This document shows, piece by piece, positions 8,180 through 20,763 of a stretch of DNA of 46,020 nt. Position numbers and translations under genes: made by a program. Under the pieces are notes generated by a model that was not told the DNA's origin, did not search any database, and saw nothing but the letters and a program-made list of their open reading frames with translations. Source of the stretch: Clostridia bacterium (GTDB taxonomy: Bacteria; Bacillota; Clostridia; UBA1212); the NCBI GenBank assembly GCA_017625675.1, contig JAGAKK010000066.1, positions 1 through 46,020 of the forward strand, read 5' to 3'. Position 1 is the first letter of the stretch. Each line of letters starts with the position of its first letter.

Positions 8180-8871
8180 CAGAGCTGGAAATAAAGATTG
8201 CTGACAATCTGAAAAGCATAAATGAGAGAATAGCAAAGGCTGCTGAGTCAGCAGGCAGACGGGCTGAGGACGTAAGGCTTGTGGCGGTATCAAAAACCGT
8301 AGGGCCGGAGGCTGTCAGGGCTGCTATCCTTGCAGGACAGAGGGAGTTTGCGGAAAACAGAGTGCAGGTTCTGAGAGAAAAACTTGAGGCGCTTCCCGAT
8401 GAAAATATTAATTGGCACCTTATCGGACATCTCCAGACCAACAAGGTTAAATATTGCGCAGATAAGGTCTCTCTGATACACTCAATTGACCGGCTTGAGC
8501 TTGCGGAGGAGCTGGAGCGTTTTGCAAAAAAACACGACACCGAGGTACACGGTCTTCTTCAACTTAACGTTTCAGGGGAGGAGAGCAAATTCGGCCTTGA
8601 TCCTGAAAAAATCAACGAATTTATTGAAGGGTTCGGAAAACTTACCAGAGTACATATTGACGGATTGATGACAATGGCGCCTTTTGGCGCAGAAAAGTCA
8701 TATTTAAGGGAAATTTTTTCAAAAACAAGGGAAATTTCTATTGACATTTCTTCGCAAAATGTACATAATATTTCTATGGTGGAGTTGTCTATGGGTATGA
8801 GCGGCGACTTTGAGGAAGCGATCCTTGAGGGTGCCACTATCGTGCGAATAGGAACAGCCGTTTTCAGTTAG
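8176..8871 (+). CDS. PLP homeostasis protein, YggS/YlmE family
   Basis: A single-domain alanine-racemase-like TIM barrel that carries pyridoxal phosphate and buffers the cell's PLP pool; no catalytic activity is known for the family. The PLP-binding motif VAVSKTVG (about residues 36-43) with its Lys, the block FAENRVQVLREK and NWHLIGHLQTNK (about 78-89) are all diagnostic. The C-terminal LSMGMSGDFEEAILEGATIVRIG motif (phosphate-binding end) is also complete. Length 231 is normal. It overlaps the previous gene by ATGA and precedes sepF, as ylmE does in Bacillus and many Clostridia. Confidence 0.93.
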   Translation: MTELEIKIADNLKSINERIAKAAESAGRRAEDVRLVAVSKTVGPEAVRAAILAGQREFAENRVQVLREKLEALPDENINWHLIGHLQTNKVKYCADKVSLIHSIDRLELAEELERFAKKHDTEVHGLLQLNVSGEESKFGLDPEKINEFIEGFGKLTRVHIDGLMTMAPFGAEKSYLREIFSKTREISIDISSQNVHNISMVELSMGMSGDFEEAILEGATIVRIGTAVFS

Positions 8872-8943
8872 TTTTATACATGCAGAACTGATTATTGTAC
8901 AAAAGAATTTTTTAAGTTACAAAAGACAAGGGAGGAAATTTTT

Positions 8944-9870
8944 ATGGCAACTATGCACGGTGGATCCGGCAAGGGTATTGGCGGCGTTTTCAGTGGTATC
9001 AAGACATTTTTCGGTGATCTTATGAGCAATGAATCAGACCTTATCGGCCCTGATGAGTATCTCGAGGATTCTGTTGACGATACCGATCTGGTTATGGAAG
9101 TATCCGATACAGTTTATGATGCACATGAAGAAACTATTTTTGAAGAGTCCGGGGAGTCTGCGATGGTTTTTGCGGAGATTGAAGAGACAGCAGAGCCTGA
9201 AATGAAAGCAGAGGAAGTTAAGGCAGAGGCGAAGAGCGTAGAAAATAAATCTGACTCAGGTTCTTTCGGAAGAGCGTCTTTCGTAAATCCCGTTGAGTTT
9301 TTTTATACAAAGAAAGTTAATACGACAGAGAATAAAGGAGAAACAAAAATGGCTAACGAGACTAAAGTTGAGACACCTGCATACGGTACAGCTAAGAAAA
9401 GTGAGAGAGTAGGTTCTGTAGGATTTAACTACAGCCAGACAAGTAACGAAGTAAACGGATCTTCTGCAGGACGCACTTTTGCAGCTCAGAAGGCAGGATC
9501 TCCCGTTGGAACTATCGTTCAGTTCTTTGAGCCCAGAGACACAAAGCAGGCTGACGACATCTGTACTGTTCTTAAGGCAGGTCATATCGTTGTTGTTAAT
9601 CTCTGCAACATCAGAGAAGAGAGCGACAAGATCAGAATTATCGACTTCGTAGCAGGTTGCTGTAAGGGTATTGACGCAAAGGCTCACACAGTAGCACCTA
9701 AGAGCATCTTCATTGCGGCTCCTAAGGGTGTAGAGCTCCGCAAGCCTGTTGATTATACACAGGAGGCTCCTGTTGAGAGTAATCAGGGCGCTCCTTTCTT
9801 CGGCGGACTTAATTTCAACGGAACTCCCGGCGGAGAGAGAAATATCAATTCTTTTGAGCCCAGAATCTGA
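8944..9870 (+). CDS. sepF: cell division protein SepF (long form)
   Basis: SepF tethers FtsZ to the membrane and polymerises into rings. The N-terminus (GIGGVFSGIKTFFGDLM, about residues 11-27) can form the amphipathic membrane helix. The SepF domain is at about 186-270: VGTIVQFFEPRD, the block HIVVVNLCNIREESDK and RIIDFVAGCCKGIDAK are the characteristic strands and helix. The linker of about 160 residues, rich in Glu, Lys and Val in its first part, is much longer than in Bacillus (whole protein about 150 residues), making 308 in total. Inside the linker there is a second perfect ribosome site and ATG at 9349. The start at 8944 is preceded by GGGAGG at 8931-8936. Last gene of the run starting at lgt. 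Confidence 0.92.
   Translation: MATMHGGSGKGIGGVFSGIKTFFGDLMSNESDLIGPDEYLEDSVDDTDLVMEVSDTVYDAHEETIFEESGESAMVFAEIEETAEPEMKAEEVKAEAKSVENKSDSGSFGRASFVNPVEFFYTKKVNTTENKGETKMANETKVETPAYGTAKKSERVGSVGFNYSQTSNEVNGSSAGRTFAAQKAGSPVGTIVQFFEPRDTKQADDICTVLKAGHIVVVNLCNIREESDKIRIIDFVAGCCKGIDAKAHTVAPKSIFIAAPKGVELRKPVDYTQEAPVESNQGAPFFGGLNFNGTPGGERNINSFEPRI
9334..9351 (+). promoter_or_regulatory. internal Shine-Dalgarno and ATG inside sepF
   Basis: AAAGGAG (9334-9340), eight bases, then ATG at 9349, in the sepF frame. Translation from here would give a 173-residue protein (MANETKVETPAYG...) that keeps the whole SepF domain but lacks the N-terminal amphipathic helix. The site is as good as the annotated start. 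Use in the cell is inferred. Confidence 0.5.
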
Positions 9871-10324: not shown

Positions 10325-10353
10325 TTGACAGTGGCTTTTGGGTCTTGTATAAT
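10325..10353 (+). promoter_or_regulatory. consensus sigma-A promoter of the T-box transcript
   Basis: TTGACA (10325-10330), 17-base spacer, TATAAT (10348-10353): both hexamers perfect. Drives the T-box leader and acyl-CoA synthetase gene. Confidence 0.88.
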
Positions 10354-10375
10354 TAAGCCCTAGTTGAATAAAAAA

Positions 10376-10650
10376 TGCATTGAAGGAAAAAAGTAACCTT
10401 GAAAAGTGTTTGCAGAGAGTCCGTGGCGGTGGAAACGGATAATGGTGATCAGGGCGAACTCGTTCCGGAGCATCCTGTACGAAGAGCTTTGCTTGTGTAG
10501 GACAGGACGTTGGGCAGGCGTTAACTGCGCTTTGAGGGAGTTGCTTGGCTTTTGTTTCCCGTAAGATTTGGAAAGTCAGTCGACTAATTAGAGTGGTACC
10601 GCGTAGAAAAGAAATCTTCGTCTCTATATTTATATATAGAGACTTTTTTT
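10376..10650 (+). promoter_or_regulatory. T-box leader (tRNA-sensing riboswitch), probable Leu specifier
   Basis: A T-box leader senses the aminoacylation of one tRNA and prevents termination when that tRNA is uncharged. Visible parts in order: stem I base with GAAGGA and AGTAA (10382-10395), the AGAGAGTC distal element (10414-10421), GGTGGAAAC (10428-10436), a specifier region GAACTCGTTCC followed by CGGAGC, and the T-box itself, GAGTGGTACCGCG (10591-10603), whose TGGTACC pairs with the tRNA acceptor end. A terminator hairpin follows at 10620-10650. Reading the specifier in the usual position after GAA gives CTC, leucine; a shift of one base would give TCG (Ser) or ACT (Thr). The identity of the class is firm; the amino acid is tentative. 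The regulated gene is an acyl-CoA ligase, not an aminoacyl-tRNA synthetase. Confidence 0.9.
10620..10650 (+). terminator. T-box intrinsic terminator
   Basis: Perfect inverted repeat, GTCTCTATAT and ATATAGAGAC, followed by seven T. This is the OFF structure of the leader; the T-box sequence upstream would form the competing antiterminator. Confidence 0.9.
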
Positions 10651-10691: not shown

Positions 10692-12404
10692 ATGAACCCG
10701 ATTTTTGGTGAAAAGGACAACAGTTTGATAAATATGACGTTGGGCGACCTGCTTGACAGGACCGCATCTCTTTATCCTGACGTAGACGGCGTTGTTTACG
10801 CAGACCGTCCTTTTCGACTTACATATAAAGAGTTTAAAGAGAAGTGCGACGAGGTTGCAAGAGGTCTTCTTGCTATCGGCGTAAGAAAGGGCTGCCACGT
10901 AGCTATCTGGGCTACAAACTACCCTGAGTGGATACTGTTGATGTTTGCAACTGCGAAGATCGGCGCGACCCTCGTTACCGTAAATACAAACTACAAGATT
11001 TTTGAGGCGGAATACCTTCTGAAGCAGTCCGATACAGACACGTTGGTAATGATGCACGGTCTCAAGGACACTTGCTACACGGATATCATTAACGAGCTTT
11101 GTCCCAATCTTAAGGACAGCGCTCCGGGCCAGCTTGTGAACCCCGACCTGCCCCGTCTCAAGAGAGTTATCTACATTGACAAGAAAGAGGAGACTCCTGC
11201 AGGTATGTACCACTGGTCAGACCTTTATGAGGAGGCTGCCAAGGTGAGTCAGGAAACCTTGGTTGAAGTACAGAAAAACGTTGTGCCCGGTGACGTTGTA
11301 AATATGCAGTACACCTCAGGAACAACAGGCTTCCCCAAGGGCGTAATGCTTACACACTTCAATATCCTGAACAACGGAAAATGTATCGGTGACAATCAGA
11401 AGCTTAGCCACGTTGACCGCGTTTGCTTGCCTGTGCCCTTCTTCCATTGCTTCGGCTGTGTGCTGGGAATTATGGCGTGTATTACTCACGGCTCCACTAT
11501 CGTTCCCGTAGAGCGTTACAACCCCGTGAGAGTTATGGAGACCATTCAAAAGGAAAAATGCACCGCTACCTACGGCGTGCCTACCATGTATATTGCAATG
11601 CTTGAGCACCCTGATTTTTTCAAGTACGATTTTTCTACTTTGAGAACGGGTATTATGTCAGGCTCACCTTGTCCTATCAAGGTAATGCAACAGGTTGTAG
11701 ACCTTATGCACATGTCTGAAATCACTATTCCTTACGGAATGACGGAAACTTCACCTGTGTGCACAATGACAAACACAGAGGACAGCATTGAGAAGCGTGT
11801 TTCTACGGTTGGAAGAAAGATGCCTTTTATTGAGGTAAAGGTTGTTGACCCTGAGACCAACGAGGATTGCCCTCCCAACACTCCCGGTGAGGTAGTTGTT
11901 CGTGGTTACTCGGTAATGAAGGGCTACTACAATATGCCCGAGGCCACCGCCAACTCCATTGACAGCGAAGGATGGTATCACTCCGGCGACCTTGCAATGA
12001 TTGACGAGGACGGATATTTTAAGATTACGGGCCGTATCAAGGATATGATTATCCGCGGCGGCGAAAATATTTACCCCAAGGAGCTGGAGGAATTCCTTTA
12101 TACCCACCCGAAGATTAAGGACGTACAGGTAATCGGTGTTCCCGACAAGAACTACGGTGAAGAGGTCTGCGCCTGCGTTGTGCTTAAAGACGAGGTCAAG
12201 GCAAGCGAGTCCGAGGAAGATCTCCGCGCAGAGCTTAAGGAATTTGTACGCGCCAATATCTCCCGTCACAAGGCGCCCAGATACATCTGGTTTATGGACG
12301 GCTTCCCGATGACGGCCAGCGGCAAGATTCAGAAATATAAAATGCGTGAGATGGCAGTGGTTGCACTTAACCTTGGAGATGCTGCCAATATAGAAACTGC
12401 ATAA
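10692..12404 (+). CDS. AMP-dependent acyl-CoA synthetase (ACSF2/FadD-like)
   Basis: Activates a carboxylic acid to an acyl-adenylate and then to acyl-CoA, in the cytoplasm. Adenylate-forming signatures are complete: TSGTTGFPKGVMLTH (about residues 207-221, phosphate loop), YGMTETSP (A5), EGWYHSGDLAMIDEDGY (A7), GRIKDMIIRGGENIYPKE (A8, with the flexible hinge) and SGKIQK near the C-terminus with the catalytic Lys (A10). The 570-residue length fits the medium-chain or ACSF2-like group; the substrate is not readable. The gene follows a T-box leader, so expression should rise when one tRNA (probably tRNA-Leu) is uncharged; a branched-chain acid derived from leucine is one possible substrate, but that is inference. 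RBS GGAGGT at 10680-10685 fits the ATG. Followed by a hairpin with T-run. Confidence 0.9.
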   Translation: MNPIFGEKDNSLINMTLGDLLDRTASLYPDVDGVVYADRPFRLTYKEFKEKCDEVARGLLAIGVRKGCHVAIWATNYPEWILLMFATAKIGATLVTVNTNYKIFEAEYLLKQSDTDTLVMMHGLKDTCYTDIINELCPNLKDSAPGQLVNPDLPRLKRVIYIDKKEETPAGMYHWSDLYEEAAKVSQETLVEVQKNVVPGDVVNMQYTSGTTGFPKGVMLTHFNILNNGKCIGDNQKLSHVDRVCLPVPFFHCFGCVLGIMACITHGSTIVPVERYNPVRVMETIQKEKCTATYGVPTMYIAMLEHPDFFKYDFSTLRTGIMSGSPCPIKVMQQVVDLMHMSEITIPYGMTETSPVCTMTNTEDSIEKRVSTVGRKMPFIEVKVVDPETNEDCPPNTPGEVVVRGYSVMKGYYNMPEATANSIDSEGWYHSGDLAMIDEDGYFKITGRIKDMIIRGGENIYPKELEEFLYTHPKIKDVQVIGVPDKNYGEEVCACVVLKDEVKASESEEDLRAELKEFVRANISRHKAPRYIWFMDGFPMTASGKIQKYKMREMAVVALNLGDAANIETA

Positions 12405-12426: not shown

Positions 12427-12458
12427 GTGACAGGGGACTGACCCCTGTCACTTTTTTT
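12427..12458 (+). terminator. palindrome plus T-run after acyl-CoA synthetase (repeat family copy R1)
   Basis: Inverted repeat with arms GTGACAGGGG and CCCCTGTCAC (12427-12451) followed by seven T. It acts as an intrinsic terminator by shape and is also one copy of the dispersed palindrome family described in the findings. Confidence 0.8.
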
Positions 12459-20713: not shown

Positions 20714-20763
20714 TTGACATTGTTCTGAATATTGTTGACAAGGTTCTGAAACAAGGGTATAAT
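20714..20763 (+). promoter_or_regulatory. consensus promoter with direct repeat, upstream of HTH-AAA gene
   Basis: TTGACA (20735-20740), 17 bases, TATAAT (20758-20763). The 16 bases starting at the -35 (TTGACAAGGTTCTGAA) repeat 21 bases upstream (20714-20729) with two differences, i.e. on the same face of the helix. The gene product has a DNA-binding N-terminus, so this could be an autoregulatory operator (inference). Confidence 0.75.

Follow-up and report, generated by a model that had tools for sequence, protein, structure and literature searches.

A conserved leucine T-box leader upstream of an acyl-CoA ligase gene in Clostridia: a candidate route from isovalerate to leucine

Uncharged tRNA stabilizes the antiterminator of a T-box leader, and the question raised by the locus described here is why such a leader should stand in front of a gene for an AMP-forming acyl-CoA ligase. 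The locus lies in a stretch of 46,020 nt (the window), a single contig of a 1.65-Mb metagenome-assembled genome (MAG; 76% complete) of a Clostridia bacterium. An earlier note on this DNA had given aminoacyl-tRNA synthetases and amino-acid genes as the targets of T-boxes, a generalization that would still hold if the ligase were itself a leucine-synthesis gene.

The Rfam covariance model RF00230 detects the leader at positions 10371–10628 of the forward strand with 122.4 bits (gathering score 93; E value 9.1e-27). The match is full-length, covering all 219 model positions (1–219) from Stem I to the antiterminator, and it is the sole Rfam match in the whole window. The specifier loop of Stem I includes the AGUA/GAA loop-E strands, while distal Stem I carries the AGAGA element (10414–10418) and a GGTG element of the GNTG type (10428–10431), both located by sequence reading together with the covariance-model alignment. 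The T-box sequence, AGAGTGGTACCGCG, is read directly at 10590–10603, and within it sequence and alignment place the TGGT (UGGN) bulge at 10594–10597, which pairs with a tRNA ending in ACCA. The intrinsic terminator at 10620–10650 is formed by a 10-bp stem (10620–10643) followed by T7 (−12.5 kcal/mol) and overlaps the antiterminator strand; the sequence GTCTCT is common to both of these competing structures. Together, these elements bear out the earlier description of a complete T-box, whose coordinates (10376–10650) were correct to within a few bases. The sigma-70-type promoter TTGACA-N17-TATAAT at 10325–10353, on the same strand, was rightly called perfect, as it matches the consensus exactly; a second exact copy occurs elsewhere in the window, at 20735–20763. 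The thermodynamic folding of the leader is not unusual (z −0.73). Folding energy is thus uninformative here, and the evidence for the leader comes from the covariance model and from conservation rather than from stability.

On its 3' strand, the specifier loop has the sequence GAA-CTC-G and is closed by a GGAA/TTCC helix. Both the RF00230 alignment and the rule employed in TBDB (PMC7778990), which takes bulge positions 2–4 counted from the 3' end, give the leucine codon CTC at 10459–10461. The alternative frames ACT and TCG are ruled out by orthologous leaders: those that read GAAA-CTC-A, together with four that carry the synonymous CTG, fix the frame as CTC. The leucine specifier that had been proposed on first reading is therefore retained by the covariance alignment. 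In the 76%-complete MAG, the Leu anticodons found are TAG, TAA and CAA only, tRNA-Leu(GAG) not being among them, and a pattern search, using a pattern that has no positive control, gave no match to tRNA-Leu(GAG) in four of five genomes. An A at the discriminator position is expected for tRNA-Leu.

The ligase ORF (10692–12404, forward strand) begins 42 nt past the leader terminator. Its product of 570 amino acids contains the domains PF00501 and PF13193 with intact adenylation motifs A3, A5, A7, A8 and A10, in agreement with the original identification of the target as an acyl-CoA ligase. The best NCBIfam match is NF009233 (PRK12583; 764.9 bits against a cut-off of 832), so the protein is closest to this fatty acid CoA ligase family and is not counted as a member; it is the best match, but the family leaves the substrate undefined. 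MbcS (NF047394) is not among the best 25 family matches of the window ligase. A terminator-like hairpin, read from the sequence on the same strand at 12427–12458, 3' of the gene, makes the transcript look monocistronic. Upstream in the window, a methionine gamma-lyase family protein (PF06838; 5069–6346) occurs in a cell-division neighbourhood, with SepF at 8944–9870. The nearest orthologues of the ligase come from MAGs of rumen and gut Clostridia.

Leucine specificity extends well beyond the window. All 64 leaders read upstream of ligase orthologues or of their operons specify Leu (60 CTC, 4 CTG), and the ligases under these leaders diverge to about 50% identity. Among the close orthologues (identity of 74% or more, 5' end intact, and the window counted), 14 of 14 have a T-box, ten with CTC and four with CTG. 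It is present, always with CTC, at another 10 loci of about 55–65% identity, most of which encode TIM-barrel fusions of ~840 aa. Sixty further loci/genomes were drawn from a class-wide search, and 40 of them have the T-box, either directly upstream of the ligase (26) or upstream of a leuA-like gene abutting the ligase (14), again invariably with CTC; a few of the 26 direct leaders were found by a T-box core pattern, with CTC readable and a score below Rfam gathering. About a third of the sampled class members with the ligase have no T-box, and none of the Brevibacillus and Desulfobacterota homologues retrieved for a ligase tree has the leader. The T-box label clusters strongly in the Clostridia of this tree, requiring 16 changes as opposed to 49 with shuffled labels, a clustering that near-copies inflate. 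Judged from these comparisons, leucine-specific T-box regulation of the ligase is nearly certain.

The gene neighbourhoods of the ligase relatives suggest what is being regulated. In 17 lineages, a ligase fused to a TIM barrel lies directly 3' of a leuA-like gene, and a Leu T-box heads 14 of these 17 operons. HMGL-like and LeuA_dimer domains are present in the leuA-like protein, which scores below the cut-offs for 2-isopropylmalate synthase. The full cluster was seen in just two genomes, G212 (L271+L314) and G246 (L279+L313), both members of a fused, more distant subclade, where the order is leuA-like, ligase, branched-chain aminotransferase (BCAT), P-loop, ferredoxin, vorB, vorA, vorC, XRE regulator and second AMP ligase. 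The BCAT of these clusters is ilvE_II, over the cut-off in G246; a Leu T-box of 103 bits heads the G212 cluster, and none was detected at the head of the G246 cluster. Elsewhere, ligase, P-loop and vorBAC follow one another in G089 (L270), vorBAC lies behind the ligase in L076, and VorA precedes it in L039. NifJ is directly downstream of a Leu-T-box ligase in L061, a weak link because this placement is seen in L061 only and the contig ends there. Taken together, the leuA-like, BCAT and vorDBAC neighbours point to leucine being made from an acid by reductive carboxylation. The earlier note had offered a branched-chain acid as substrate, serving to rebuild or replace leucine-derived acyl groups; gene context favours such a substrate, and these same neighbours argue for leucine synthesis rather than the replacement of such groups.

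Other genes also recur beside the ligase. An acyl-ACP thioesterase-like gene adjoins the T-box ligase, mostly directly downstream, in the rumen relatives L005, L006, L007, L009, L151, L152, L153 and L011, and a gene resembling homocysteine S-methyltransferase in sequence directly follows the Leu-T-box ligase in L240, L241, L242, L236 and L238. A search for an isovalerate-degradation cluster around the Brevibacillus and Desulfo homologues turned up no diagnostic isovaleryl-CoA pathway; beside these homologues lie an XRE/cupin regulator and genes for acyl-CoA dehydrogenase and MbcS-like proteins.

The second AMP ligase of G212 and G246 has MbcS as its best family, below the cut-off. In L214, L216, L219, L282, L284, L291 and L292, an MbcS-like ligase fused to XRE-HTH and cupin domains (~730–800 aa) is under an Ile (ATC) T-box. 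This gene precedes ileS in one case, L214, and in several genomes it is found directly behind the leuA-like/ligase pair. The Staphylococcus aureus MbcS is a methylbutyryl-CoA synthetase which takes 2-methylbutyrate and isobutyrate and is poor with isovalerate (PMC10026030), so that isovalerate would be left for another ligase. As an AMP-forming ligase salvaging branched short acids, the S. aureus enzyme resembles the proposed window enzyme. However, the window ligase belongs to another subfamily, with 24% identity to the MbcS-like paralogues, and is governed by a Leu T-box, whereas those paralogues carry Ile T-boxes. Reductive carboxylation would predict just such a pairing, of Ile with 2-methylbutyrate and of Leu with isovalerate.

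Biochemical work since the 1960s has shown that rumen bacteria convert isovalerate to leucine. We consider it probable that, in the organism studied here, leucine starvation induces the activation of isovalerate, which is then converted by reductive carboxylation to 2-oxoisocaproate and on to leucine. In this scheme, uncharged tRNA-Leu would base-pair at the CTC specifier and at the UGGU bulge, stabilizing the antiterminator and permitting readthrough into the ligase gene, whereas transcription would stop at 10650 when tRNA-Leu is charged. The ligase would transform isovalerate, which is abundant in the rumen, into isovaleryl-CoA, to which VOR or IOR would add CO2 using reduced ferredoxin, and a branched-chain aminotransferase would turn the resulting 2-oxoisocaproate into leucine. 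What is established at the level of sequence is the switch, with its specificity for Leu and its conservation, and the occurrence of this ligase family beside leuA-like, BCAT, vor and MbcS-like ligase genes. From these we infer isovalerate as the substrate and carboxylation as the direction, and the lone gene in the window would do what its clustered relatives do. The window ligase is not adjacent to vor or BCAT; the host genome encodes the 2-oxoacid:ferredoxin oxidoreductases vorBAC and iorAB elsewhere, and nifJ as well. It also has a de novo operon, ilvA-ridA-leuA-leuC-leuD-leuB-ilvB-ilvN (L086, 8395–16, reverse strand), preceded by a tandem T-box (8462–8901, reverse strand) read as Leu (CTC) and then Ile (ATC). 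Thus, the ligase route would be an alternative or cheaper source of leucine, not the sole one.

Isovalerate activation might instead serve lipids, the ligase salvaging isovalerate as isovaleryl-CoA to prime the synthesis of iso-branched membrane fatty acids once leucine, the usual source of this primer, runs out. Such an MbcS-like role has a precedent in S. aureus, where MbcS does so for 2-methylbutyrate and isobutyrate (PMC10026030), and the acyl-ACP thioesterase after the ligase in several rumen relatives hints at fatty-acid metabolism. We nevertheless judge it unlikely, since the ligase was not seen next to any gene of fatty-acid synthesis, the leuA-like, BCAT and vor neighbours are makers of amino acids rather than lipids, and tRNA charging would be an indirect signal for lipid priming.

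A slightly less likely reading than this has isobutyrate as the substrate, its CoA ester being carboxylated to 2-oxoisovalerate, which the leuA-like enzyme would elongate toward leucine. The VOR family accepts 2-oxoisovalerate, the VOR proteins give NF005507 matches, and the leuA-like gene abuts the ligase in the 17 lineages. Yet 2-oxoisovalerate also makes valine, and a Val specifier was never seen among the leaders read; moreover, most T-box ligases, that of the window included, have no leuA-like neighbour.

The isovalerate-to-leucine scheme gives no role to the fused TIM barrel. This N-terminal, xylose-isomerase-like domain (PF01261) is joined to the ligase in L118, L116, L113, L279 and about 80 class genomes, and its nearest NCBIfam model is fructoselysine 3-epimerase, far below the cut-off. 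It is this TIM barrel, and not an HTH domain as was considered, that accounts for the extra length of the ~840-aa homologues. The fusion is widespread and also T-boxed, and homologues of the TIM barrel exist as separate proteins in genomes whose ligase is unfused, all of which would suit a leucine-linked pathway where the ligase acts on some other acid and an isomerase-like domain is needed too. That this is so seems improbable, as the fusion was lost or never present in the window clade and the context of BCAT, VOR and MbcS-like genes needs no isomerase. Finally, although promoter captures of this kind happen and the same genome has a distinct T-boxed leu operon, chance capture of the leader from a lost leucine gene, a possibility that the earlier note had tied to orthologues lacking the leader, is scarcely credible given a Leu codon in 64 of 64 leaders across Clostridia and the few label changes on the tree (even with clustering inflated by near-copies), and the same conservation rules out a chance or decayed leader.

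A wider picture can be drawn, on which our confidence is evenly balanced. Clostridia would have a dedicated, tRNA-switched assembly of branched-chain amino acids from branched-chain acids. A shared VOR and aminotransferase would be supplied by two enzymes, a Leu-T-box isovalerate ligase (often TIM-fused and leuA-like-paired) and an MbcS-like 2-methylbutyrate ligase under an Ile T-box, and acyl-CoA ligases would form a new class of T-box targets. In architecture, CUC specifier, UGGN bulge and predicted transcription attenuation, the window leader is like the Leu-class T-boxes (Bacillus subtilis ilv-leu, CUC; Clostridioides difficile leuA and leuS); it differs in having an acyl-CoA ligase as its target. 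No such target is listed in the T-box surveys PMC2494555, PMC3766115 and PMC11477304 or in the main text of PMC7778990. References cited in PMC7356843 document the carboxylation of isovalerate to leucine in the rumen, and the proposed pathway shares with the route as described there the conversion itself, the anaerobic hosts and the rumen setting; the gene for the activating enzyme and the leucine RNA switch would be what is newly proposed here. In the literature searched, we found no paper naming a gene for the isovalerate-activating step.

Branched volatile acids are growth factors for rumen bacteria, which make leucine from isovalerate. A leucine-sensing switch on a conserved ligase provides a concrete candidate for the activating step and tells when it would be on, and a paired candidate is offered for the conversion of 2-methylbutyrate to isoleucine. 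If the proposal is true, the targets of T-boxes widen to acid salvage, and the result would help to annotate a large family now named simply 'fatty acid CoA ligase'.
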